Positions 1-42,498 of a DNA stretch of 64,000 bases are shown one piece after another. A program made the position numbers and the translations under genes. The DNA lies in IMG/VR virus record IMGVR_UViG_3300023174_002543, positions 123,664-187,663 of that record. One strand, 5' to 3'. Source of the stretch: a virus. The first letter of the stretch is position 1, and each line of letters opens with the position of its first letter. The notes below the pieces were generated by a model. The model was not told where the DNA came from and did not search any database. It saw nothing but the letters and a program-made list of their open reading frames with translations.

Positions 1-3000
1 CTTCAGTGGCTAAACAAAATACATGGACACATGTTGCGATTACACGAACCAACGGCGTAGTATATTTATTTGTCAATGGTTATAGAGTGGCTTCATCACT
101 AGCTAAAACAACATTGTGGGGTGGTACTGATACATTAAACATTGGTCGTTATCAGCCAAGTGGAAATCAATACTTTGTAGGATATATCACTAACGTGAGA
201 TTTGTATATGGAACGTCAGGAATATACACAAGTAATCCATTAACTCCACCTTACACTACACCATTGACTGCTGTTACAGGTACAACATTGTTATTGTTAC
301 AATCAACACTAACTAAAGATAATAGTGCTAATAACGTAACAGTTACAAATAATAATGTGATATTATCAACGTATACCAATCCGTATACAACAATGAAGTT
401 GCCATTCTTATTAAGTGCTCAAAATGGATATGGTATCAATGCCGGCACCGTAGTAAGAGATAATAGTATATTTAACACTTCATTACAAAGTACCAGCACT
501 AGTTATGTAACATATATGGCTGCAGTAAGTCCTTTTGGAGTGACCCCCACTCTACTAGTTGGTCAATCAGCCATGCAACGTGATGAAAGTATCAACAGCC
601 TAGTTCCACAAACAATTACCACAACAGCCACAATAATGCCTTATGTAACACCATTCAGTGGTAATGCAGTTGCATTTAACGGCAGTACAAGTTATATTAC
701 TGGTACTAACTTATACAACAGTTTGGGCGGGGACTTCACAATTGAATTCTTTATGATGGCAGGTCCACAAACTGCTACAGTCGGTGGATTACTGTTAGGC
801 AGAAACATAAGCTGGTCTACTACAAATAATAATTATTATATCATGTGTAGTTCACCCGGTGGAGTTGGGAAAAACTCATTACAAACTATACAAATTTATA
901 ACCCGCTTATTAGTATAACTTCACCTGTGTATTTAGGATTAACCTCGGTTTGTGATAGCAAATGGCATCATATTGCTATTGTAAGAATTAATGGTATTGT
1001 AAAAATATACATCGATGGAGTATTAGATACAAGTCCGTTTAGTAGCTTTGCGAATACGGGTATTTGGGACTATAGCAATTATACTATTGGTAGTAATCCA
1101 AATGACGCTGGGTCAACAGTAGCCCAATTAGCATACAACGGTATGTTAAGTAACTTGCGTATTATTAATGGTACCGGTATTTACACAGGCACGTTCACCC
1201 CTCCTACAAATAACTTAACAACATCACAATCTAGTAGAACAAATGTTGTTCAATATACATCAACAACACCAAGTTCAACAGGTTATAGTTTGCAATTTAA
1301 TTCAGCGACTGGTAGTTATCTAACTACAACCTATTCCCCTGTACTAAGTTTAGGAACAAATGACTATACGATTGAGTTCTGGCACTTCTTATCAGGTAAA
1401 TCAGCAGCAAATCAACCTTGTTTGTTCAGTAATGCTAATAGTTCTAGTGCTGGCGTTTTAAATATGTATGCCGGACATGCTAGTGCCAATGTACTAAAAT
1501 ATCAACTTGCATTTAACACTCAGTCGGTAATAGCTACTTATATAACCATGCAAAGTGTATCAAATATCATCTATGGCAAGTGGACACATATTGCATTGGT
1601 AAGAAGATCAGGGGTTGTGTATCTATATATTAATGGTACACTTGATTCTACTAGCGGTTTAGGTAATTATTCTGTATACAGTTCTCAATGGTACATAGGT
1701 AATGATGTGACAAATTCAGCTTTAGGATATATTTCTGGCTTCATCAGCAACTTCCGTGTCACAAACGGTCTAGCAGTTTATACCGGTAACTTTACAGTAC
1801 CAACTAGTGCATTAACAACAACACAAAGTTCAGGTACAAACATTGCTGCAATAACCAATACAAGTCTGGCTAATGGTGGTGCAATATCTATTGTAGCCAG
1901 TGGTTCACAATATATAAATACCACCATGGTATTAACAACTGCAACCACTAACATGACAGTTGAGGCTTGGGTAAATTTCACTTTATTCCCAACGTCAAAT
2001 ACTTGGATAGGTGGCACTGCAACTATTTTTAGTACAAGCGGTAATAGTTATTCAAGCGGTATACATTTTGTATTAGGTTCAACTAATATATATGTTGTAA
2101 TAACAAATACTGTATACGGTGGTTATGCACACAACATGGTTGCTGGAACTTGGTATCATCTTGCGTATGTTATAAATAACGGGGTCGTTACATTCTTTAT
2201 AAATGGTATTTCTGTGGGTAGTATATCAGGTATCCCTGTTACTTTTGGAGCACCTAGTTATTCTGTAATAGGTGCATCTGATACCAGCGGATCATATGGT
2301 ATCGGTAGTATTGGTGGCGGTAGCGTTGGGTACATTAGTAACCTAAGAGTATTAAAAGCAACTGCATTATATACCGGTAACTTTGTACCAAGCACCAGCC
2401 CACTAACTAACACCCAAAGTGCAGTAACTAATATCAGTGCAATCACAGGCACAAATACAAGTTTATTGTTACAAAGTTCTGCTACAACTGATGCAAGCGC
2501 AAATGCATTTACACTAACAGTTGGCGGAAGCCCAAGCGTTAATACTTCTGTGTTCCCCAAGTTTACAGTGACAAATGCATCTAGTGCATACTTTCAATCA
2601 AACGGAATTACTACTCAGTATGCATCACTAAGAGCTCCTACTGCTACTAGTATTCTTGGCACAGGTACATTTACAGTTGAATGCTGGATATATCCTATAC
2701 CATTCTTGGCAGCTACATCAGCATATCAAGTTATTATAGATAATGATACGGCTTCAGGATTAAATGCATTTAGTATAAATCCAAATGGTACTATATTTTA
2801 CGGTCTAACTCTTAGTACAGTATTAGGAACAACCTCATCGCTATACACAGTAAAATTTAATGCTTGGAATCATTTAGCATTGGTGAGAAATGTTACACCG
2901 GCGTCAAGCATAGCAACCATATATATTAATGGTGTAGCAGGATATGCCGGTACAGATACTACAAGTTATAACGGCGGTATTGTTCGTATAGGTACTCAGC

Positions 3001-6000
3001 GTTCAGGCATTACATTCCCTTATACAGGCTATATATCTAATCTAAGAATTGTTAATGGTGTTGCTGTTTATACAAGTAATTTTACAACTCCTACAGCACC
3101 TTTAACTGTTACTCAAAGTGCAAACATTAACGGTAACCCAAGTACTGCACTAGCAATTAATACATATGCAGGCAATTTTAACGGTACTTCACAATATCTA
3201 ACAGTTCCTACTAGTGCAACTGCAAACGTGATACCATTGATATTAGGTAATAGTAATTTTACTATTGAATGTTGGATTTATCCATTAACCTCAAGTCAAA
3301 GTACATGGTTTATTGATTTTAGACCTACTATAGAGGGTGCATATCCTGCATTAGGATTAACTAGTGGTACAATTTATTATTTTGTTAATAGTGCAACTAA
3401 AATCACTGGGTCAGTTGCTGGCTTGTATCAATGGACTCATGTAGCAGTAGTAAGAAACACCAATATAACTACACTATATATTAATGGCGCCGGTGTAGGT
3501 TCATTCACTGATACTACAACATATCTGCTTAATCAAAATGTAAGCCCTCCGGTCATAGGTACATATGGTGTTACACGTGGTGGTACTGGATTTGTTGGCT
3601 ATATAAGCAACGTGCGTATTGTTAATGGTACATCGGTATATAATAGTGCGTTTACACCCCCTACTACTCAGTTAACTGCTACTCAAAATGCAGGAACAAA
3701 TATCAGTCCAATTGGCTCACTAATAACTACCAATGGATATTATAGTAATTTCTTCAATGGTTCTACAAGTCAATATTTGTCAGTGCCAGGGCAAGCCTTA
3801 GTATTTGGTACCCTACCATTTACAGTTGAAGTTTGGATTTATACAACATCTCAAAACGGACCGGCAATTATCGATAACATGATAAGCACATCAGGTTCAT
3901 ATTCTATTGGACAGTGGTACTTTGCACTTACTACTACTACAGGGTATCCAGTATTTTATTATGCAACAGGTGTTTCTACTCTTGTTACAATTACTTCTGC
4001 CATAAGTGCTCCTATCGGTCAATGGACTCATCTTGCTGCAGTAAGAACGGGCACAGGTACAAATGGATTCACTATTTACGTTAACGGTCTTGTAGGTGTA
4101 ACTACAACAATAAGTGCTTCAATAGGTGCATTTAATACAACCACTTCAAATACAATTGGGTTGATGACAAGTCCTAGAAATGCACCCGTAGCAGGATTTC
4201 TATCTAACGTAAGGGTAACAACTGGTTTAGGCGTATATACAGGAGTATTCAGCCCGCAATTCACACCACTGACTAACACTCAAAGTATAGTAACTAGTAC
4301 ACAAAGTAGTTTACTAGCATTGCGAACAACTTCTATCATTGATGAAAGTACGAATGCATTTACATTAACATCAGTTGGCTCACCCGCAACAAGTGGTAGC
4401 GTAACACCGTTCGTAACAACTAATGGATACAGTGTATTGTTTACACCTAATCAATTCTTGGCTGCAGCCCCATTGAGTAGTATATATCAAGTGTTTACCG
4501 GGGATTTTACTGTTGAATTCTGGGCATACTGTACAAATTCTTCAACTGTTAATTGTTTGTTTATGAATTACAATGGAACAAGTGATATCAGTTTCTACAT
4601 GGGTTTTACCCCCGTTGCAGGGCAACTCAGTTATGGTGGCTATAATACATACACTACATTAAGTGCAGCAGCCACATCTGTATTGTTCAACGTATGGACA
4701 CACATTGCATATGTTAGAATTAATAGTGTCGAAACTGTGTATTTTAACGGTGTCTCTGTATCAACAAGTACACGTACTTTAAACTTTGCCACCGGTACTT
4801 TATATGTTGGTATTAATCCAGCAATTGGTCAATACTTCAGCGGCTACATGAGTAATTTTAGAGTTATTAAAGGACTCGGTGTTTATACTGGTAACTTTAC
4901 ACCTTCTACTACCCCATTAACTACAACGCAAAGTTCAAGTACAAACATTCAAGCAATTACAGGTACGGCACCTGCAAACGGTAATAGTGTTAATTTTAAT
5001 GGTAGTTCATATTTGAATACTACTGGTAATAGTCAACTTGAATTTGGTAATAATACATATACGATTGAATTTTGGTTCTATCTTACTTCAGTATCAGTAT
5101 ATCAACATCTATATGATTTAAGAGGTTCCGGTCCCAATAACATAGCATCTTATGTTTATTGCCAAACTAATGGCTCTATATATTATGGCATTGGTAGTAA
5201 TACGACAGTAATACCAGGATCAAGTACTGCTGTTGCTGTACAAACATGGTATCATCTAGCGATTGTAAGAACGAGCCAATCAACCAATGGCGTTACTATG
5301 TACTTAAACGGTATAAATGTTGGTGTTGGTACTGATGCTAATACTCATTTACAGTACGGATTACGTTTAGGTGCAGCTAGTCCCTCAGCCACAGCGTTTG
5401 CTACTGGTTACATGAGTAACTTTAGAATATTGATTGATACTGCTTTGTATACAAGTAATTTTGCAATGCCAAATAATACATTAACTGCAATAACAAACAC
5501 TAGAGTACTAGCATTACAAAATTCAACCACCACGGATGCAAGTGCAAATAATTTTACATTTACTGCAACCGGTACAGTAACATTAACTACAACAATATCA
5601 CCGTATATTTATACTACTAATTGGTTGATAATGCAAAATTCACCTACTACTGATGCAAGTATTTATAATTCAACCCCTAGCAATTCAGGCGGAGCCGTTA
5701 TTTCTATAAGGTCTCCCTTTATAGTAACTAACGGATACAGTACACAGTTTACAGGTAGCAGCCAATATATTCAAGCGCCAAGCGATGCAGCGTTTACATT
5801 TGGTACAAATGACTTTACAATTGAAGGTTGGATATATCTAAGTACCAATACATCAACTGGTACACTTTATGATGGTAGAACTGCAACTAACTCACTTAGC
5901 CCGGTAATTTATATTGATTCCAATCGAGTATACTATGCAGTTGGTAGTACTATTGTTATTACTGGAAGTTTTATAGCGTCTGCAACTTGGTATCATATTG

Positions 6001-9000
6001 CAATATCTCGTTTTTCAGGTAGTACAAGTTTATATGTAAACGGTCTACAAACAAGTAACATATATGCAGATACTAATAACTATGTAATTGGCGCACCGTA
6101 TATTGGTACTGGATATAACTCAAGCAACCCATTAACAGGTTATATCAGTAATATTCGTGTAGTTAAAACTGCATTGTATAATAATAGTTTTATTCAATCA
6201 ACTGTACCACTAGTTGCTACAGTAGGTGGAAATATCAGTGCGATTTCGGCACTTACTGCTACTAACGGTTATTATGCTTCTGCGTTTGGCGGTGCTAACG
6301 GTCTATCAATATCAACTGTAAGTGCTATATATGCATTAGGAACAACATATACAATTGAGATGTGGCACTATAGAATGAGCAACACATCTGCTGGATCATT
6401 TACAAGTGCATTGATACTAGTTGGAACAACAAATCTTGGAACTGCTTGTACAGGATTCCTACTTACATACAACACCAGTGGTGTTATTAATTTCTTTGAC
6501 AGTAGTAATGCCACAGTAATTAACTACGCTAATGCAACTACTAATATACCGTTGTATACTTGGACACATATTGCTGTAGTACGAAATAGCACCACAACAG
6601 TTACATTATATGTTAACGGTGTTAGCGTTGCAACAGGAACTAGTTCAGCAACTCAAGCAACTAACTCATCTGTATTCATAGGTGGTGATACTGCTAATCA
6701 AGGTAGATTTACAGGATATATAAGTAATTTACGTATTGTTAAAGGTGTAGCAGTATATACTGGTGCATTTACAACACCCACTGGTCCTCTATCTACTATT
6801 CAATCTAGTGGTACAAATATTTCTGCATTAGTTGGAACAGAAACAAGTTTATTAACATGCCGAAGTTCAACTATTGTGGACAACAGTACAAACAGTGCCA
6901 CAAACACTATTACAAATACCGGTATAGTTGGTACAGCAATTGCTATTGGATTGTTTGGTAATAACTCCGGTGTAGTATTATTAACCAGTCAAAGTTCAAC
7001 TATAGTTGATAATAGTGTTTATGCAGCTCCAATGACAAATACTGGATCAGTTCTCATTCAGCCAGTAATTAACTTGTATGCAAATAAGGGCGCAACACAA
7101 TTATTAGCACTACAGACTAATAATAATGTAACATTAGATACCAGTATCAATGCATATGCTCTTGTAAATAATGGTACTACAACTACATTGCCTGCAGCAG
7201 GATTATTTGGTACAGCAGTCGTTAATTTGTTAGCACTACAATCATCATTGACTACTGATGCCGGTTATTATGCAACTACACTAACACCAAGTGGATTGGT
7301 ACAGTTTGATGCACTATCACCTTATGCAGCACTCAACGGTAATAGTATATTCTTTAATGGTGATAACCAATATATTCAGGCACCAAGCAATGCTGCGTTC
7401 ACATTCGGCACAGGTGACTTTACTATTGAAGGTTGGATATATCTAATTGGTAATACTAAAACGGGTACATTATATGACGGTAGAACTGGTTTAACTACAG
7501 TAAGTCCGCAAGTCTATATAAACAATAATATTGTATACTACGCAGTTGCCAATGTTAATCGTATTACCGGACCTACAATAAATATTGCTACCTGGTATCA
7601 TATTGCAGTAGTAAGAATTTCAGGCATCACAGAGTTATTTGTTAATGGTAATCAATTTGGTATCGATTATATTGATACTAATAACTATGTTATTGGATCC
7701 CCTCTAATTGGTCAAGGTTATAATAATAGTAATTCGCTAATAGGATACATCAGTAATGTACGTGTAGTTAAAGGAACCGGAGTATATGTAAGTCGATTTA
7801 TTACACCTATAACAACACTAACAAATACACAGGCCAGTAGCACAAATACAAAAGCATTAGTTGCATTACCTACTTCAGGTTATTACAGTGGTTATTTTGG
7901 TTCAACTACACAAGCATATTGTGTCGTTACTACACCAACAACTATGCTTACACTATCAGGTAGTGCATTTACAATTGAAGCATGGGTATACTTTACTGAT
8001 TGGGGAAATGTTGTTAGTCTTGTGTATGGTGCAGGATTCTTTAGTACTGGAAACAGTGCCGGCTTTAACATTGTCTTTGCAGGCACAGTTTCTTCATATA
8101 CCGGTGTAACAATATATGCAGCAAGTGGTACGGTAAACAACTTATTTCCCTATGCTTTCCAATTAGGCACATGGTATCATGTTGCGGTTACAAGAACCAT
8201 TAATGGATTATACAACGCATTTGTCAATGGAACAAATATAGGAAATTATACTAGTACTAGTACTTGGGTAGATCCTACAAGTCAAAGCATAGCACTTAGT
8301 TATTCGCCAAGTGCCTATTATTTCTCTGGCTTTATAAGTAATCTTAGAATTACAATGGGTCAAGCAATATATATCGGTACTTATGCATCATTTACACCAA
8401 GTACTAATATATTGACAACCACACAAAGTGCAAATACAAATGGTAGTCCAAGTCTTGCAATTGCACAGTCAACTAGTGCCGGTTATTATAATTTAGGGTT
8501 CGTTGGTAATGCTTCACAATACTTGACATTATCTGGTGCAGGACATGTATTTGGTATAAACCCATTCACTATTGAATGTTGGGTATATGCAATAAGTTTT
8601 GCCACCAATATGCCAATAATTGATAACTTTACTAGTAATACAGCAGGTTCATATATTATTGGTAGTTGGAGATTATATTTGAGTGCTACCAGCGGTGTAC
8701 CTACTTTTATATACGCAACTAGTGTTTCTGCAACTAGTGCGTTTAGTACATTGATTGGGCCCTCACTAAAATCATGGACACATATTGCAGTGGTAAGAAC
8801 TAGTGCAAGTGTTGGTGGATTTAATATATATATCAACGGAGTATCAGGTCAAGCAAATACCCTAAGCCAATCGATTGGTGCAGTCAACAGTAATACACAA
8901 ATTGGTGCAGGTAAGGATGGTTACCCATTCAATGGATATATTACCAATATAAGATTAACAAATGGCGTGGCATTATATACTAATTTGTTTGTACCACAAA

Positions 9001-12000
9001 CTACACCTTTCACTGCAATACAAACGGCACAAACTCCTGTTATAAGTTCATTGTTGGCATTACAAAACTCTGTTACAACTGACGCAAGTGCGAATACATT
9101 TACATTAACTGCTACAGGTAGTCCAACTGTTAGTTCAACCGTTGTTCCTTATATGCCAGTTACTAACGGATATAGTGTTTACTTTAATGGTTCTAGTTAT
9201 GTATCATTAACCACGCAAACTGCTTTTGGACTAGGTACAGGGGACTTTACAATTGAAGTATGGATATATCCTACTCTAAATCCTGCTAACGGTATAGGTG
9301 CAATTGCTGACTTTAGGACAGGTGCCACTGCAACTGCTACATCAATAAGAATTAATAATGCTAGACAACTACTGTTTTATGACGGCCCACAAAATAATGA
9401 TGCTATATTTACCAATACTACTGTTGCTCTCAATCAATGGAGTCATATTGCTTATACAAGAATAGGTAATTTAGTTACTGGATACATCAACGGTGTAGTT
9501 GCTGGATCAGTGGCAGTAACTAGTAATTTAGGATCAACTCAACCAATATGGATTGGTAATAATCAAACTGCTGGTTATAATTTCAATGGTTACATGAGTA
9601 ATTTCCGCCTAGTAAAGGGTCTAGCAGTATACACCGGTGCATTTACTCCTCCAACAAGTCCATTAGCAACTACACAAAGTTCAGGTACAAATATTGTTGC
9701 ACTACCGGGTGGTAGTACTACATTCTATAATTCATTCAACGGTACTAGTCAATATTTAACTACACCAAATAATACTGCATTCTCATTGAGTGGTGGTAGT
9801 TATACAATTGAATTATGGGCATATTGGAATAACATATCCGGCGAGCAAGTAATCATTGAACGCTTTACTGCTGCCAGCGGTCCGGGATATACACTATATA
9901 AAACCGGTGGACACCAAATTCAATTGTATGGAAGCGCCACGGTAGTAACCAGCACTAGTACACTAGTAGCCGGAACTTGGTATCATATTGCAATATCTTA
10001 TAATGGAACAAACACACGTGTATTCATTAATGGAACACAAGAAGCTACTGCCACTTTAAACATCACAGACTCAGCTTCTCCACTAGTTATAGGTTCTCGT
10101 AATAGCGGAGCAAGTGCTTTCTTCAATGGATACATTTCCAATATAAGAATAGTAAAAGGTGTTGCAGTTTATACCGGTAACTTTACAGTACCAACTGCCC
10201 CATTAACTGCTACGCAATCTAGTGGTACAAACATCAGTGCTATTACTGCAGGTCAAACTGTATTACTAACTTGCCAAAGTTCACTCATTGTTGATAATAG
10301 TGCATCGTTGGTGACATTCACAAATCCGCTTGGTGTGACAACTACACCTACATCATTGACACCTGTCTATGTACAATTGTTAATGTTACAAAATTCAGTG
10401 AATAATGATGCAAGTGTTAATAGTTTTAATGCAGGTATTACCGGTACTCCAACAGTTAACACTACTAACATGACATATATGCCGTTCGTTAATACTAACG
10501 GACGTAGTGTACGCTTTACAGGTAGTACTCAGTATATCAACGCACCAAGTAATGCGGTATATACATTTGGTACAGGTGACTTTACTATTGAAGGTTATAT
10601 ATACTTGGCTAGCGGCACTAGTGGCACATTGTTTGATAACAGAACCGGCGCAACAACTGTTAGCCCACAAATTTATATAACTGCAAGTACCATTAATTAT
10701 GCAGTATCTGGTACAAGCGTTATAGTAAGCCCAACTATATTCTCTAGCACATGGTATCATGTTGCCGTAGTAAGAATATCAGGCGTTACTATACTATATG
10801 TTAATGGTATACAAGCAGGTGTTTCATATACAGATAGTAATGATTATGTAATTGGTAGTCCATTCATTGGCACAGGTTTTGGCAGTAGTAATCCATTGAA
10901 TGGATATATTAGTAACTTGCGAGTAGTCAACGGCACTGGATTGTATACTAATACGTTTGTTGTTCCTACTATACCATTAACTGCAAATGCAGTAAGTAGT
11001 GTTATAACTAATCTACCCGCACCAATAACTAGTAATGGATATTATGCTACTGCATATTCAGGATTAACAAGTCAATATCTATCAGTACCTGGTACACCGT
11101 TTGTATTCAGTACTAATGCATTTACAGTTGAATGCTGGGTTTACATAAATTCATTAGCCGCACAACAAACACTAGTTGATAATTTCGTAACCGGACCTAG
11201 TGGATCGTTCACGCCAAATCAATGGCAACTCTATATTACAACTAGTGGTACAGTTGCCTTCAACTATGCAACCAATGCATCTACAGTATTGACTCCAACA
11301 ACTACAACTACGGTAAGTCTTGGCGTATGGACACATATTGCAGTAGTTAGAACAAGTACAAGTACAAATGGATTTGTAATTTATATCAATGGTATTGCAG
11401 GTGTAATTGGTACAGTAAGTTTTGGATTAGGTGTTAACGTAACAAGTAGTATAGGTATACAAACTTATAGTAAAACATTACCTATGACTGGCTTTATAAG
11501 TAATTTAAGAATTACTAACTTGGCAGTTTATACAGGTACGTTTACTCCACAAACTTCCCCATTATCGTTAACTCAAGTAGGTGGTAGTTCAACTAACGCA
11601 ATTACCGGTACTCAAACATCGTTATTAGTATTACAGAATACAGTTACAACTGATGCAAGTACAAATAATTTAACATTAACCGCAACTGGTAATCCAGTTA
11701 TCTCACTAGTTATATCGCCGTACCCAACATCAGTAGCTAATAATTATAGTGCAAGTTTTAACGGAACTACAACGCAATATCTAATTACATCGGCACAAAC
11801 AAGTTCTACATATTTTGGTACAGGTGATTTTACTATTGAAGCATGGGTGTATTTAACATCAACCCCCTCACAGAATGCATCAATTACTTGCGTTAACGCT
11901 GATTGGCAAATAAGTTGGAACGTAAGTGGTTTCTGTTTCATGCCTGACGGGTCTGTTAGAAAAGTCAATACAAATAACTTAGCAGCCATATCAAATAATA

Positions 12001-14747
12001 CATGGTATCATGTGGCATTTACTAGACAATCAAATACTCTTAAATCATATTTAAATGGTGCCTTGGCAATGACGGATACAGATTCTGGAAATTATACTAG
12101 TTTAAACGGTATTCGCATTGGTGCAAATAGAAGTAACAACGTAGGATTCCCCGGATATATCAATAATTTACGTATAATTAAAGGTACTGTGGTCTATACT
12201 GGTAACTTTGCTGTACCTACAACTGCATTAGGAATTATACAAAATTCAAGTACTAACATTTCTGCATTAACTGGCAGTGAAACAATATTATTATCTGTAC
12301 AATCTAGTACAATTACTGATAATTCTCTTACTGGCTTTACTATAACTAATAATAGTGCTGTTACAACGACCAATAGTGTACGACCTAGTCTTTTAATAGC
12401 AGTTACTAATGGAAGTAGTGTATACTTCACGGGTAGTACTCGATATGTAAGAGCACCAAGTAACGCAGTATTTACATTTGGTACAGGTGACTTTACTATT
12501 GAAGGTTGGGTATACTTAAATGCTGCCGCAACCAGTGGTACATTATATGATGGTAGAACAGGTGCTTCAACCACAAGCCCTCAAATTTATATTGCATCAA
12601 ATGTAGTAAATTATGCAGTTGCAGGTTCTAGCGTAATTACTGGTGCAACATTAAGTACAATAACTTGGTATCATATTGCTGTAGTTAAAATTTCTGGTAT
12701 CACTAAGCTATATGTTAATGGCACACAATCAGGTAGTACATATACCGATAGTAATGATTATGTAATTGGTAGTCCATTCATTGGTACAGGTTTTGGTAGT
12801 AGTAATCCATTAAATGGATTTATATCTAATCTACGTGTAGTTAAGGGCGTCGGTGTCTATCCTAATAATTTTAATACTTCTTCATTACCGTTTAATTCTA
12901 CTCAAGTATCAGTGAGCGGTTCTGGTGTTAACACAATTACGGGTACATCGGTTTCACTATTAACCGCGCAAAATGCAACTATTGTTGATAACAGTACATT
13001 TGCAGTTACCATTACAAACGTTGGTACAGTTGTTCCTGCAGTGGCATTTGGATTGTTCAATAACTCAGGTGTTTCGTTATTAACTGCACAAAATAGTACA
13101 TTTGTTGATAATAGCGTTAACGGTGTTACAATTACAAATACTGTATCACCTGCAGTGACTACTCAACAGTTATATGGGTTGTTTGGAACCAGCTTGACTA
13201 CCCTATTGGCACTACAAAATAGTAACAGTCTAACTATAGAAGCAAGTGTGAATGCCCTTGCGGTGTCAGTGAGTGGTGTAGCAATAATGGAAAAATCATT
13301 TAGTGCAATTGGCGGATATGTAGTACCTTCATTGTTAACTGCACAATCAGGAAATACCATAGACAATAGCGTAAACTCATCAATATTCACTATTACAAAT
13401 AATTATGCTTTATACCAAACAACTGTAACACCATATGGTGCATTAACACCGGTAGCATTATTAACTGCACAGGGTAACGTGTTACTAAGTGACGCATCTG
13501 GGTACCACTCAAATGTCAATCCAGTAGTTGCTGCATCCATAATGTCGAATACGGCTAACGTAACTATTAACACAACGCATGGGCCATTCAATAATGATGT
13601 TCCATTATTAACATTCCAAAATGCATTGGTAACCGACTATGGCAATAACAGAACACAAATGACCACAGTTGGTTCGGGTATAGCACCAACCGATGCAAGT
13701 CCATTCAGTAGTAAATCATTGACAAGTTTCTTAGTACCATATGGTTATAATGATATTAGTATTAGTAATACTGCAACTACGGGTAACACATATCTTCTTA
13801 ATAATGCAAATATTGCATCAGCGAGCACATTACTAAATCCGTTTGTCATCCCAACTAGTGCAGTAACTGTTTTAGCACTACAAACTAGTAATATTCTAAT
13901 AGAATCTAGTATTAATAACGGAACATTTACTACTGCAAATACTACACCTACAAGCAATGCGTTTAGTCCATTCGGTACATATTATAGCAATGGAATGATT
14001 ACATTGAACGTTAGTGGTACTACGTATGCCAATCTTAATGTTACCAGTTCAACACCGGCGCCTAGCAGTACAAGTAATTATTCAATTGCAATATCATCAA
14101 CTTCAAATATTGGAAATAGAGAGGTATCAGGTGGTGCTATTACTCAAGGAGCAGGATCTTTGGGATATGGATTTAGTTATGCTAATGCAAACATAGTAAT
14201 TGCTGATGTTGCAAACAGTAACTTGGCAGAGTCATTTGGTAATGCTAACATAGCAACTGCAAATTATCGCATATCTTATGACGGTGCTATAACTATTAGC
14301 ACTGGGTACGGATTGCCCAATGTAGGGAATCTCACACTTAATATACTAGATAGTGCAAACATTACTTTGGATGAATCGCGGGCTAATGCAAATATAGCAA
14401 ATACTAATTACTTTAAGTCCTATGACGATGTTCTTGACAGTACAGGTTTTGGTCTACCTAATATAGGTCCAAGTAATGTAACACTATTCATTAGTAATGT
14501 AGCAGGTAGTAACTTGGCTGAAACATTAATAAGTAATAATTTAGGTAATGCTAATTATTATCGTCAATCAGACACTATACTATCTTCTCAGGCTGTTTCA
14601 AGTTATATACCCACACCGGTTGGTGGTGTAATATTGTTAATAACATATTCATATACTGACGGTGTTCCTATTGTAGCAGCAAACGTACAAAGTGGAAGTG
14701 GAAGTGGAACATTTGCTGCCAATACACAGATTTGGACACAGACTTAA
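1..14747 (+). CDS. giant LamG-repeat virion/adhesin protein (5' end outside window)
   Basis: The open frame runs in from the window edge (the codon before the first GTG is sense), so the N-terminus is missing; 4913 residues are visible. I count 20 copies of a LamG/concanavalin-A-like (Laminin_G_3-type) jelly roll. Each has a FTIEGWIY-like strand, a W(T/Y)H(I/V)A(V/I)R turn and a YVNG strand, followed by a linker of the type GYISNLRIVKG.ALYTGNF.PPT.PLT. The period is about 200-250 residues. Spacer segments carry degenerate LL..QSS..VDNS..TITNTG units. The last ~500 residues lack LamG and are rich in N, A, S and T. Composition is Thr/Ser/Asn/Gly-rich with almost no Cys, typical of extracellular beta proteins. 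LamG folds usually bind glycans, so a host-binding tail fibre or capsid decoration is likely. An Asn/Thr-rich fibre-like protein also lies at 61.2-62.8 kb. Confidence 0.9.
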   Translation, partial: SVAKQNTWTHVAITRTNGVVYLFVNGYRVASSLAKTTLWGGTDTLNIGRYQPSGNQYFVGYITNVRFVYGTSGIYTSNPLTPPYTTPLTAVTGTTLLLLQSTLTKDNSANNVTVTNNNVILSTYTNPYTTMKLPFLLSAQNGYGINAGTVVRDNSIFNTSLQSTSTSYVTYMAAVSPFGVTPTLLVGQSAMQRDESINSLVPQTITTTATIMPYVTPFSGNAVAFNGSTSYITGTNLYNSLGGDFTIEFFMMAGPQTATVGGLLLGRNISWSTTNNNYYIMCSSPGGVGKNSLQTIQIYNPLISITSPVYLGLTSVCDSKWHHIAIVRINGIVKIYIDGVLDTSPFSSFANTGIWDYSNYTIGSNPNDAGSTVAQLAYNGMLSNLRIINGTGIYTGTFTPPTNNLTTSQSSRTNVVQYTSTTPSSTGYSLQFNSATGSYLTTTYSPVLSLGTNDYTIEFWHFLSGKSAANQPCLFSNANSSSAGVLNMYAGHASANVLKYQLAFNTQSVIATYITMQSVSNIIYGKWTHIALVRRSGVVYLYINGTLDSTSGLGNYSVYSSQWYIGNDVTNSALGYISGFISNFRVTNGLAVYTGNFTVPTSALTTTQSSGTNIAAITNTSLANGGAISIVASGSQYINTTMVLTTATTNMTVEAWVNFTLFPTSNTWIGGTATIFSTSGNSYSSGIHFVLGSTNIYVVITNTVYGGYAHNMVAGTWYHLAYVINNGVVTFFINGISVGSISGIPVTFGAPSYSVIGASDTSGSYGIGSIGGGSVGYISNLRVLKATALYTGNFVPSTSPLTNTQSAVTNISAITGTNTSLLLQSSATTDASANAFTLTVGGSPSVNTSVFPKFTVTNASSAYFQSNGITTQYASLRAPTATSILGTGTFTVECWIYPIPFLAATSAYQVIIDNDTASGLNAFSINPNGTIFYGLTLSTVLGTTSSLYTVKFNAWNHLALVRNVTPASSIATIYINGVAGYAGTDTTSYNGGIVRIGTQRSGITFPYTGYISNLRIVNGVAVYTSNFTTPTAPLTVTQSANINGNPSTALAINTYAGNFNGTSQYLTVPTSATANVIPLILGNSNFTIECWIYPLTSSQSTWFIDFRPTIEGAYPALGLTSGTIYYFVNSATKITGSVAGLYQWTHVAVVRNTNITTLYINGAGVGSFTDTTTYLLNQNVSPPVIGTYGVTRGGTGFVGYISNVRIVNGTSVYNSAFTPPTTQLTATQNAGTNISPIGSLITTNGYYSNFFNGSTSQYLSVPGQALVFGTLPFTVEVWIYTTSQNGPAIIDNMISTSGSYSIGQWYFALTTTTGYPVFYYATGVSTLVTITSAISAPIGQWTHLAAVRTGTGTNGFTIYVNGLVGVTTTISASIGAFNTTTSNTIGLMTSPRNAPVAGFLSNVRVTTGLGVYTGVFSPQFTPLTNTQSIVTSTQSSLLALRTTSIIDESTNAFTLTSVGSPATSGSVTPFVTTNGYSVLFTPNQFLAAAPLSSIYQVFTGDFTVEFWAYCTNSSTVNCLFMNYNGTSDISFYMGFTPVAGQLSYGGYNTYTTLSAAATSVLFNVWTHIAYVRINSVETVYFNGVSVSTSTRTLNFATGTLYVGINPAIGQYFSGYMSNFRVIKGLGVYTGNFTPSTTPLTTTQSSSTNIQAITGTAPANGNSVNFNGSSYLNTTGNSQLEFGNNTYTIEFWFYLTSVSVYQHLYDLRGSGPNNIASYVYCQTNGSIYYGIGSNTTVIPGSSTAVAVQTWYHLAIVRTSQSTNGVTMYLNGINVGVGTDANTHLQYGLRLGAASPSATAFATGYMSNFRILIDTALYTSNFAMPNNTLTAITNTRVLALQNSTTTDASANNFTFTATGTVTLTTTISPYIYTTNWLIMQNSPTTDASIYNSTPSNSGGAVISIRSPFIVTNGYSTQFTGSSQYIQAPSDAAFTFGTNDFTIEGWIYLSTNTSTGTLYDGRTATNSLSPVIYIDSNRVYYAVGSTIVITGSFIASATWYHIAISRFSGSTSLYVNGLQTSNIYADTNNYVIGAPYIGTGYNSSNPLTGYISNIRVVKTALYNNSFIQSTVPLVATVGGNISAISALTATNGYYASAFGGANGLSISTVSAIYALGTTYTIEMWHYRMSNTSAGSFTSALILVGTTNLGTACTGFLLTYNTSGVINFFDSSNATVINYANATTNIPLYTWTHIAVVRNSTTTVTLYVNGVSVATGTSSATQATNSSVFIGGDTANQGRFTGYISNLRIVKGVAVYTGAFTTPTGPLSTIQSSGTNISALVGTETSLLTCRSSTIVDNSTNSATNTITNTGIVGTAIAIGLFGNNSGVVLLTSQSSTIVDNSVYAAPMTNTGSVLIQPVINLYANKGATQLLALQTNNNVTLDTSINAYALVNNGTTTTLPAAGLFGTAVVNLLALQSSLTTDAGYYATTLTPSGLVQFDALSPYAALNGNSIFFNGDNQYIQAPSNAAFTFGTGDFTIEGWIYLIGNTKTGTLYDGRTGLTTVSPQVYINNNIVYYAVANVNRITGPTINIATWYHIAVVRISGITELFVNGNQFGIDYIDTNNYVIGSPLIGQGYNNSNSLIGYISNVRVVKGTGVYVSRFITPITTLTNTQASSTNTKALVALPTSGYYSGYFGSTTQAYCVVTTPTTMLTLSGSAFTIEAWVYFTDWGNVVSLVYGAGFFSTGNSAGFNIVFAGTVSSYTGVTIYAASGTVNNLFPYAFQLGTWYHVAVTRTINGLYNAFVNGTNIGNYTSTSTWVDPTSQSIALSYSPSAYYFSGFISNLRITMGQAIYIGTYASFTPSTNILTTTQSANTNGSPSLAIAQSTSAGYYNLGFVGNASQYLTLSGAGHVFGINPFTIECWVYAISFATNMPIIDNFTSNTAGSYIIGSWRLYLSATSGVPTFIYATSVSATSAFSTLIGPSLKSWTHIAVVRTSASVGGFNIYINGVSGQANTLSQSIGAVNSNTQIGAGKDGYPFNGYITNIRLTNGVALYTNLFVPQTTPFTAIQTAQTPVISSLLALQNSVTTDASANTFTLTATGSPTVSSTVVPYMPVTNGYSVYFNGSSYVSLTTQTAFGLGTGDFTIEVWIYPTLNPANGIGAIADFRTGATATATSIRINNARQLLFYDGPQNNDAIFTNTTVALNQWSHIAYTRIGNLVTGYINGVVAGSVAVTSNLGSTQPIWIGNNQTAGYNFNGYMSNFRLVKGLAVYTGAFTPPTSPLATTQSSGTNIVALPGGSTTFYNSFNGTSQYLTTPNNTAFSLSGGSYTIELWAYWNNISGEQVIIERFTAASGPGYTLYKTGGHQIQLYGSATVVTSTSTLVAGTWYHIAISYNGTNTRVFINGTQEATATLNITDSASPLVIGSRNSGASAFFNGYISNIRIVKGVAVYTGNFTVPTAPLTATQSSGTNISAITAGQTVLLTCQSSLIVDNSASLVTFTNPLGVTTTPTSLTPVYVQLLMLQNSVNNDASVNSFNAGITGTPTVNTTNMTYMPFVNTNGRSVRFTGSTQYINAPSNAVYTFGTGDFTIEGYIYLASGTSGTLFDNRTGATTVSPQIYITASTINYAVSGTSVIVSPTIFSSTWYHVAVVRISGVTILYVNGIQAGVSYTDSNDYVIGSPFIGTGFGSSNPLNGYISNLRVVNGTGLYTNTFVVPTIPLTANAVSSVITNLPAPITSNGYYATAYSGLTSQYLSVPGTPFVFSTNAFTVECWVYINSLAAQQTLVDNFVTGPSGSFTPNQWQLYITTSGTVAFNYATNASTVLTPTTTTTVSLGVWTHIAVVRTSTSTNGFVIYINGIAGVIGTVSFGLGVNVTSSIGIQTYSKTLPMTGFISNLRITNLAVYTGTFTPQTSPLSLTQVGGSSTNAITGTQTSLLVLQNTVTTDASTNNLTLTATGNPVISLVISPYPTSVANNYSASFNGTTTQYLITSAQTSSTYFGTGDFTIEAWVYLTSTPSQNASITCVNADWQISWNVSGFCFMPDGSVRKVNTNNLAAISNNTWYHVAFTRQSNTLKSYLNGALAMTDTDSGNYTSLNGIRIGANRSNNVGFPGYINNLRIIKGTVVYTGNFAVPTTALGIIQNSSTNISALTGSETILLSVQSSTITDNSLTGFTITNNSAVTTTNSVRPSLLIAVTNGSSVYFTGSTRYVRAPSNAVFTFGTGDFTIEGWVYLNAAATSGTLYDGRTGASTTSPQIYIASNVVNYAVAGSSVITGATLSTITWYHIAVVKISGITKLYVNGTQSGSTYTDSNDYVIGSPFIGTGFGSSNPLNGFISNLRVVKGVGVYPNNFNTSSLPFNSTQVSVSGSGVNTITGTSVSLLTAQNATIVDNSTFAVTITNVGTVVPAVAFGLFNNSGVSLLTAQNSTFVDNSVNGVTITNTVSPAVTTQQLYGLFGTSLTTLLALQNSNSLTIEASVNALAVSVSGVAIMEKSFSAIGGYVVPSLLTAQSGNTIDNSVNSSIFTITNNYALYQTTVTPYGALTPVALLTAQGNVLLSDASGYHSNVNPVVAASIMSNTANVTINTTHGPFNNDVPLLTFQNALVTDYGNNRTQMTTVGSGIAPTDASPFSSKSLTSFLVPYGYNDISISNTATTGNTYLLNNANIASASTLLNPFVIPTSAVTVLALQTSNILIESSINNGTFTTANTTPTSNAFSPFGTYYSNGMITLNVSGTTYANLNVTSSTPAPSSTSNYSIAISSTSNIGNREVSGGAITQGAGSLGYGFSYANANIVIADVANSNLAESFGNANIATANYRISYDGAITISTGYGLPNVGNLTLNILDSANITLDESRANANIANTNYFKSYDDVLDSTGFGLPNIGPSNVTLFISNVAGSNLAETLISNNLGNANYYRQSDTILSSQAVSSYIPTPVGGVILLITYSYTDGVPIVAANVQSGSGSGTFAANTQIWTQT

Positions 14748-39452: not shown

Positions 39453-39481
39453 TTGACAAGATATCCAACTTAGTATATAAT
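39453..39481 (+). promoter_or_regulatory. sigma70-type promoter P1, TTGACA-17-TATAAT
   Basis: Fully consensus. First of two tandem, similar promoters; downstream lie non-coding RNA and tRNA-Asp/Glu/Tyr. Confidence 0.88.
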
Positions 39482-39554: not shown

Positions 39555-39583
39555 TTGACAATAAATCCAATTAGATGTATAAT
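39555..39583 (+). promoter_or_regulatory. sigma70-type promoter P2, TTGACA-17-TATAAT
   Basis: Fully consensus, with the TTGACAATAAATCCAA block. P1 and P2 share spacer and downstream similarity (ATCCAACTTAG / ATCCAATTAGA; GAGTTGAGAAATCAAC / GAATTGAGAAATTGAT), indicating a local duplication. Confidence 0.9.
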
Positions 39584-39589
39584 ACATTT

Positions 39590-39900
39590 AATGAGTTGAG
39601 AAATCAACATGTTCTTTAAAAAGTTAATTTTTCATATAGCCCTGTTTAAGTTACAGGGACTATATGCAAACACATTGGGTTACCTTCCCAGTAGGTAACT
39701 TAGATAGTGAGTAACCAGTTGACGGACTGGCACTTCTGAGTTACACGAAACCTTGAGACTATTAGTTATAGTAGTCAGGAGGACGCTGGAACAAGTTGGC
39801 ACGTAATGTGGTTGACAAACAAGTCCGTGGACGGCACGGTAGGGCAGGATCAAAACTGTTATTTTTGTCAAACACCCCAATGTCTTTTCATATAGTGTGT
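39590..39900 (+). ncRNA. structured non-coding RNA downstream of tandem promoters
   Basis: No ORF. Hairpins in order: CATATAG.CCCTGT / ACAGGG.CTATATG near 39634, GTTACC/GGTAAC near 39680, CCAGT-TGACGG-ACTGG near 39717 inside an outer GTAAC/GTTAC pair, and CCTTGA-ACTAT / ATAGT-TCAGGAGG near 39750. Consecutive strong stems suggest a stable RNA. Family not recognised. Confidence 0.6.
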
Positions 39901-39901
39901 T

Positions 39902-40022
39902 ATTAGTTCTATCCTCTGTAAGCACAGAGGCAAACTAGATGCGTTATGTAACCTATCCGATAAACAGTAATCGGCCGTAAAGCTGTTGAGGGTAGGCAAA
40001 TAGTGCAGTGGATAGAACTAAT
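39902..40022 (+). ncRNA. small structured RNA closed by a 13-bp stem
   Basis: ATTAGTTCTATCC (39902-39914) pairs perfectly with GGATAGAACTAAT (40010-40022). Inside: CCTCTG-TAAGCA-CAGAGG hairpin, CCTATCC/GGGTAGG stem, and competing CCGAT/ATCGG and AACAG/CTGTT pairings. The right arm ends 8 bases before tRNA-Asp, so it may be cut out with the tRNA. Confidence 0.65.
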
Positions 40023-40029
40023 AATATTT

Positions 40030-40280: not shown

Positions 40281-40758
40281 GAAACATGTTAGTAAAGAAT
40301 TTGGGGGCATAGCCTCTTTAAGATAAGTCACGTGAGTGACCCAAAGCAGTATCCTCCTACAGGACTGCGCCAGTAATGGTCTATCTATGCAAGCCTGCTC
40401 TCACCCGCGAGGGTGCGTTCACTGATAAGACCGGTGGATGTAACAGTAAAGCAAGTGTGTTGGAAAGAATGTCTGTTTATGTTCCCGTGAGGGTAAGACA
40501 GGCGGACAGAGAGTAACAGGTGGTGCTGACCTCAACACAAAACCAACTTGTCAATTGGTAAGAGAAAGGGTAGTGTATTGATTCGAAGGGTCGCTCCTAA
40601 GAGTTCGTATGCAGTTTGAGTGTTTGATGGATATGTAGTAATACATATACATTGGTCGCAAAAAACTACTGATTACTCCGCGAGAGGAAAGGTACGTGGC
40701 GTGTTGTATTTTGTAGTCCAAAAGATTATGAAGCAACTGAGACAGCACATCACAGTAG

Positions 40759-40830
40759 GTTGTTATAGGCTAATGGTAGGCCGATTTCCTTTTAAGAAAT
40801 AGACTGTTGGTTCAACTCCAACTAACATTA
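40759..40830 (+). tRNA. tRNA-Lys-like cloverleaf (TTT) without CCA, inside the giant RNA
   Basis: Acceptor GTTGTTA/TAACATT (one mismatch, one G-T), D-stem GGCT/GGCC, anticodon arm ATTTC-CTTTTAA-GAAAT, T-arm GTTGG-TTCAACT-CCAAC. Unlike almost all tRNAs here, no CCA is encoded (TAA follows the discriminator). A normal Lys(TTT) tRNA exists at 42422. Confidence 0.6.
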
Positions 40831-41165
40831 TAAAAACGCAAAGTCTGTCTCGGTGGTATGTGAAAAACATCTAATACTTGAGTGGCAACACAATCAAGTC
40901 TGACGTAACTCGCAAGGTGAAATCAGTTTATGCAGGAAGTATCGTAACTACTTAGCGGTAGTGAATGGCTCTAAAGGTCAACGGTGTAGAAAGCGTAGAA
41001 TAGCATATCATGTCAAGTCTAATGCCTGACTTAAAACGGCGATGTTGGTAACAGACTAGGATATGTAGTAATACAGTCTTAGTGGAAATCAGAAGAAAGT
41101 AGGCTCGCAAGGCTTACAATAATGTCTGAGGTGTTACTCGGTAAGCATGTATTCTCAGTGCTCCA

Positions 41166-41268
41166 CTTTATATAAAAACATACTGGACGCCACACAACGG
41201 CGGTCTAGCGTCAACTAGGCGATGTTACGTTTGACGATGTAACAGATTTAGTGTGTTTCTATATAAAG
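41166..41268 (+). repeat. long stem element of the AACATACT/AGTGTGTT family
   Basis: Left arm 41166-41184 (CTTTATATAAAAACATACT) pairs with 41250-41268 (AGTGTGTTTCTATATAAAG), 17 Watson-Crick pairs, one G-T and one A-C mismatch. The loop contains GACGC/GCGTC and TGTTAC/GTAACA stems. Confidence 0.8.
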
Positions 41269-41493
41269 GTTTTGTAAGTGTCAGCAAGAGAATGTCACGC
41301 TATAAAAGTTTCTTCGAAGGACTGATATAGTAAAAGGGGACGGGTTCAACTCCCGGTGGATCGGAAGATCCGCGCAGATTGGTTGCTAACTGGACTAGTA
41401 TCCCAAGTGACGTACCGAGTCCTGGCCCGGGCTTTATGCAAATCAGGTGAATGGTGTCAATAACGATGGTGGCACAACTTACAAATTTAATAT

Positions 41494-41581: not shown

Positions 41582-41849
41582 AAACGTTCCGTTGTCAACG
41601 GATACTCTGACCCAGAGGATGAGAAGTGATGTGACAATCACGGGTGGTTCTGAAACGGAAAAGTTTCACACAGAAGCCATGATTGAACATGGATGTATGT
41701 GCGGTCTAACCAAACCGGCGTTAGCAATACGAGAACGGTCCCTGTCGGGAAGCGGGTGGAGGTCGTGCGTGATGTTGTCGTGGATTATTCGTCTAGTCCG
41801 ATGATTGATGCGATATAATTACCGCCGAGGGATGTCAGAGCATTTATAT
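41582..41849 (+). ncRNA. chain of short hairpins between tRNA-Ser and tRNA-Cys
   Basis: Consecutive local stems: CCGTT-GTC-AACGG, CTCTG-ACC-CAGAG, GTGAT-GTGACA-ATCAC, GGTTCTG/CAGAAGCC enclosing GAAAC/GTTTC, CCATG-ATTGAA-CATGG, CGGT/ACCG and TCCC-TGTC-GGGA. A 70-codon frame here has unlike-phage composition and no ribosome site, so it is not called a gene. Function unknown. Confidence 0.6.
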
Positions 41850-42421: not shown

Positions 42422-42498
42422 GGAAGCATAACTCAACTGGCTAGAGTATCGGACTTTTAATCCGAGAGTTGTGGGTTCGAGTCCCACTGCTTCTACCA
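42422..42498 (+). tRNA. tRNA-Lys (TTT)
   Basis: Acceptor GGAAGCA/TGCTTCT, anticodon arm TCGGA-CTTTTAA-TCCGA, T-arm GTGGG-TTCGAGT-CCCAC, CCA encoded. Confidence 0.94.

Follow-up and report, generated by a model that had tools for sequence, protein, structure and literature searches.

A GOLLD RNA of a T4-type jumbo phage carries a swappable tRNA-like linker domain that looks unable to carry an amino acid

We identified a GOLLD RNA in a 64,000-nt stretch (here referred to as the window) of the IMG/VR virus record IMGVR_UViG_3300023174_002543. GOLLD is a known phage RNA whose best-studied relative assembles into a hollow cage, and in this group of giant phages its linker contains a tRNA-shaped domain that appears to be non-chargeable and is exchanged as a cassette between otherwise near-identical GOLLD RNAs. 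A tRNA or pseudo tRNA inside GOLLD has been reported previously (PMC12286853 and PMC6582537), but we did not find its selection, acceptor loss, or swapping reported in the openly accessible literature. What GOLLD cages are for is an open question, and because the linker is the only part in the lumen, a conserved and exchangeable tRNA mimic at this position provides a testable clue to what the cage holds. It also means that tRNA finders count non-tRNAs as phage tRNA genes and shows that the tRNA islands of large phages hold further structured RNAs absent from Rfam.

Identity and genomic setting of the RNA

A first-pass annotation made from the sequence alone described the interval 40290-41490 as a giant ornate RNA candidate of the GOLLD/ROOL type in a T4-like phage, either a new member or a new class. 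The underlying observations are confirmed. The longest open reading frames inside the interval are only 65 and 60 aa. We counted eight GNRA hairpins with at least three Watson-Crick pairs and five with at least four, whereas shuffled sequences gave averages of 0.8 and 0.14, respectively, and 0 of 500 shuffles reached the observed number. A 17-nt hairpin motif, GGATATGTAGTAATACA, occurs exactly twice, and the long nested stem is present. Two tandem sigma-70 promoters match the consensus at 12 of 12 positions, although they lie upstream of the preceding tRNAs rather than directly before the RNA. The single-sequence folding energy is not unusual (z = -0.99), and therefore the case rests on homology and covariation. 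The coordinates of these and other features are collected in Table 1.

The Rfam GOLLD model (RF02032) matches over its whole length (model positions 1-416) at 201.2 bits (E value of 2.6e-55), above the curated cutoff of 150 bits. No ROOL, OLE, or HEARO match was detected, with ROOL lacking a match both at the gathering level and at E <= 1. The RNA is therefore a member of GOLLD, as the first-pass annotation suggested, and neither a ROOL RNA nor a new class. The window lies in a 367,104-bp virus record that contains one GOLLD and a T4-type gp23 capsid gene, and 33 tRNAs were called within the window. The Rfam model covers only the 3' domain. We aligned the region with Sinorhizobium phage Phosso (PV764938), a cultured phage with an unannotated GOLLD and linker tRNA-like unit, and with 17 metagenomic relatives. 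Conservation across this clade extends the RNA to about 40299-41165 (approximately 867 nt). RNAalifold applied to the 5' domain of 17 sequences predicted 94 pairs, 70 of them with two-sided compensatory change, and the helix that closes the linker is paired in all 18 sequences tested, with 15 compensatory cells against 2.9 in shuffles.

A search of 151 genomes of one class found no GOLLD but is uninformative, and a GOLLD pattern gave 19 hits in genome contigs, although an Rfam search of the records behind those hits found no GOLLD. A DNA query with a freshwater-type GOLLD found no annotated phage. We detected a second, weak GOLLD match (40 bits; G226:C1:167864-168218) in a 424-kb record that also contains a full GOLLD.

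Table 1. Coordinates of features in and around the GOLLD locus, numbered from the first nucleotide of the window
Position	Strand	Feature	Notes
6-14747		4913-aa ORF	Many similar repeats that read like LamG-type (laminin G-like) domains by eye
39453-39481	+	sigma-70 promoter	12/12 consensus (TTGACA-17-TATAAT)
39555-39583	+	Second tandem sigma-70 promoter	12/12 consensus
39640-40028		Noncoding stretch downstream of the promoters	Partial homologs (73-78%) in several phage loci; may be a further structured RNA
ends 40280		tRNA-Tyr	Flanks the interval
40299-40695	+		RNAalifold on the 5' domain: 94 pairs, 70 with two-sided compensatory change
40629-40645	+	17-nt GNRA hairpin motif, copy 1	5' domain, variable hairpin
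40696-41165	+	GOLLD 3' (ring) domain	RF02032 match at 40696-41161
40739-40745	+	5' strand of the helix that closes the linker	GAGACAG; 18/18 paired, 4 of 7 pairs with two-sided changes
40759-40830	+	Linker tRNA-like domain (Lys UUU anticodon)	D, anticodon, and T arms and inner acceptor pairs; no CCA, imperfect acceptor end
40845-40851	+	3' strand of the helix that closes the linker	CTGTCTC
41059-41075	+	17-nt GNRA hairpin motif, copy 2	3' domain
41166-41268	+	Long hairpin after the GOLLD 3' end	Stem conserved in the clade, interior variable
41269-41487	+	Second, separate conserved structured RNA (RNA B)	47 predicted pairs, 32 with two-sided changes; not in Rfam
starts 41494		tRNA-Ser	Flanks the interval
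41582-41847		Conserved structured RNA (RNA C)	Between tRNA-Ser and tRNA-Cys; not in Rfam
42422-42498		tRNA-Lys	57% identity to the linker unit

The first-pass annotation treated the interval as a single RNA, but its last ~220 nt belong to a different RNA, which we refer to as RNA B. RNA B occurs at positions from 5.3 kb before to 2.1 kb after GOLLD, on the same strand where both were located, and had no match among 50,697 phage records. RNA C, which lies next door, was likewise not found in any annotated phage, and 14 large RNA C records tested had no GOLLD. One phage record with RNA C (L355) also encodes a permuted tmRNA at 3150-3572 on the minus strand (104 bits, against a cutoff of 47).

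A tRNA-like domain in the linker

Between the two strands of the linker-closing helix lies a unit that both ARAGORN and Rfam call a tRNA-Lys, which the first-pass annotation did not see. In the solved structure of the GOLLD env-38 cage, the linker is disordered and lies in the lumen, and the authors note that tRNAs are sometimes present there (PMC12286853). To ask whether these units are tRNAs at all, we collected relatives by scanning viral sequences and verified GOLLD in 39 of 39 sampled linker-tRNA records, 38 of which were over the cutoff. We then parsed 93 distinct linker units with a custom script. Outer acceptor pairs 1 to 3 are paired in 47% of cells, compared to 48% in shuffles, whereas inner pairs 4 to 7 are paired in 94% against 60%, the D stem in 98% against 69%, the anticodon stem in 99% against 62%, and the T stem in 98% against 76%. 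Because the sequences are related, shuffles overstate significance, and because the last linker scan fixed the T-loop letters, T-loop conservation is not independent. CCA follows the unit in only 1 of 93 linkers. In contrast, among free tRNAs of the first clade loci, 219 of 224 have CCA and 207 of 219 have all three outer pairs, and 1302 of 1429 have CCA in a broader set. Within the window, 32 of 33 tRNA calls end in CCA, with the linker unit being the exception; its acceptor stem also has a U-U mismatch and a terminal G-U. The domain is therefore a selected, apparently non-chargeable tRNA mimic.

The linker units are not recent captures. Two matches of 93% and 98% are to the linker unit of one of the loci itself (L224); otherwise, the best match to a free tRNA is about 84%, with a median of 75%, whereas free tRNAs match each other across loci at a median of 87%. 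Recent capture of the window unit from the phage's own tRNA-Lys was also rejected, as the unit is at most 59% identical to any other tRNA in the window. The shape is thus kept by compensatory change while the charging end is lost. Anticodons are skewed, with Asn GUU (31), Lys UUU (18), Arg UCU (8), and Lys CUU (5) together making up 62 of 82 seven-nucleotide loops.

The units also behave as exchangeable cassettes. For example, two loci, L245 and L313, have GOLLD backbones that are 96% identical (94-100% in every other GOLLD segment compared) but linker units that are only 56% identical. Conversely, units 97-99% identical sit in backbones only 50-79% identical, and across pairs with backbones 85-95% alike, mean unit identity is only 0.68-0.69. 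With a linker-independent pattern, 15 of 16 loci carry the unit. The remaining clade member (L207) and the other GOLLD type (loci L144-L155) have no tRNA in the linker, so the mimic is optional. More distant GOLLDs with a linker unit, namely those with Gln CUG (L156) and Pro UGG (L166) and those of Erythrobacter phages vB_EliS-L02 and XM05, also lack CCA, whereas other freshwater-type GOLLDs have no tRNA there. The two Erythrobacter phages have an unannotated GOLLD-like RNA (141.9 bits in L02, below the cutoff) with linker units that differ in the anticodon arm, and XM05 has G33 instead of U33.

Possible roles of the linker domain

We are fairly confident that the interval encodes a GOLLD RNA of a T4-type jumbo phage with the covarying, acceptor-deficient linker domain described above. 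How it works is inferred. The RNA is probably cut from a polycistronic transcript started at the tandem promoters, with its ends set near the flanking tRNA-Tyr and tRNA-Ser. Assuming that it assembles into a homo-oligomeric cage as GOLLD env-38 does, with the linker inside, up to 14 tRNA mimics would face the lumen. The least certain inference, which we consider less likely than not, is that the mimics serve as bait or docking sites for a tRNA-binding factor, most likely a host tRNA-targeting defense enzyme, with cassette swapping changing which factor is engaged. Lys, Thr, and Asn tRNAs are targets of AriB (PMC12409363); however, only 6 of 82 mimics with seven-nucleotide loops carry the U39 that Escherichia coli AriB cleavage needs, so an AriB-substrate decoy is not supported. 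Most anticodon loops look canonical, so a decoding-like role is not excluded. A bolder version, in which GOLLD of T4-type jumbo phages is an RNA compartment armed with interchangeable, non-chargeable mimics that trap such an enzyme and swapping reflects an arms race over which enzyme is bound, is not excluded but is doubtful.

Other explanations are possible to differing degrees. An ordinary phage tRNA gene that happens to lie inside the GOLLD gene and is released by RNase P and CCA addition would fit the ARAGORN and Rfam calls and the common presence of U33 (88 of 93) and sensible anticodons. Nevertheless, this explanation is very unlikely given the chance-level outer acceptor pairing and the missing CCA; in addition, 11 of 93 parsed anticodon loops are not seven nucleotides long, one anticodon is UUA, and in Mycobacterium the tRNA inside GOLLD was called a pseudo tRNA with no separate transcript detected (PMC6582537). 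Docking of the translation machinery (the ribosome or an aminoacyl-tRNA synthetase), such that the cage stores, protects, or inhibits it late in infection, also seems unlikely. The cage is large enough for ribosomal subunits, ribosome binding is cited in PMC12286853, and the elbow and anticodon arms are conserved, with GG in 92 of 93 D loops. However, the anticodons are variable, some loop sizes are odd, there is no acceptor end for synthetase active sites or the peptidyl transferase center, and we have no direct data for such docking.

A passive insertion, in which tRNA genes recombine into a tolerant loop within tRNA arrays and stay without a function beyond filling or stiffening it, is a stronger rival but still less likely than not. 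GOLLD sits in tRNA arrays, linkers differ greatly, some GOLLDs have no tRNA, and cassette swapping could be array recombination. Against this, the arms keep pairing through many compensatory changes (182 compensatory cells in the anticodon stem against 60 in shuffles) although the mimics are only about 75% like free tRNAs, so the shape is maintained and not merely recent, and most loci found independently of the linker carry the unit.

Comparison with known systems

The RNA shares with GOLLD env-38, a 14-mer cage (PMC12286853), the full-length Rfam match, a conserved 3' domain with a divergent 5' domain, a length of more than 800 nt, a tRNA-island phage setting, and a linker at the same place. 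Here, however, the linker holds a covarying tRNA-like domain instead of a disordered 42-nt loop; the 5' domain was compared only within the jumbo-phage clade. In mycobacterial GOLLD (PMC6582537), a tRNA-like unit within the gene was likewise judged a pseudo tRNA, with no separate transcript detected. There it was noted in a few genomes, whereas the 93 distinct cases here show selection on shape, loss of the outer acceptor, and cassette exchange. ROOL is also a large phage cage RNA found near tRNAs (PMC12286853), but the RNA described here has no Rfam ROOL match. Finally, phage tRNAs that evade tRNA-targeting defenses (PMC10264068, PMC11555353, and PMC12409363) are also tRNA-shaped phage RNAs, and Lys and Asn are among the known nuclease targets. 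Those are functional replacement tRNAs, whereas the linker mimic appears non-chargeable and is part of a larger RNA.
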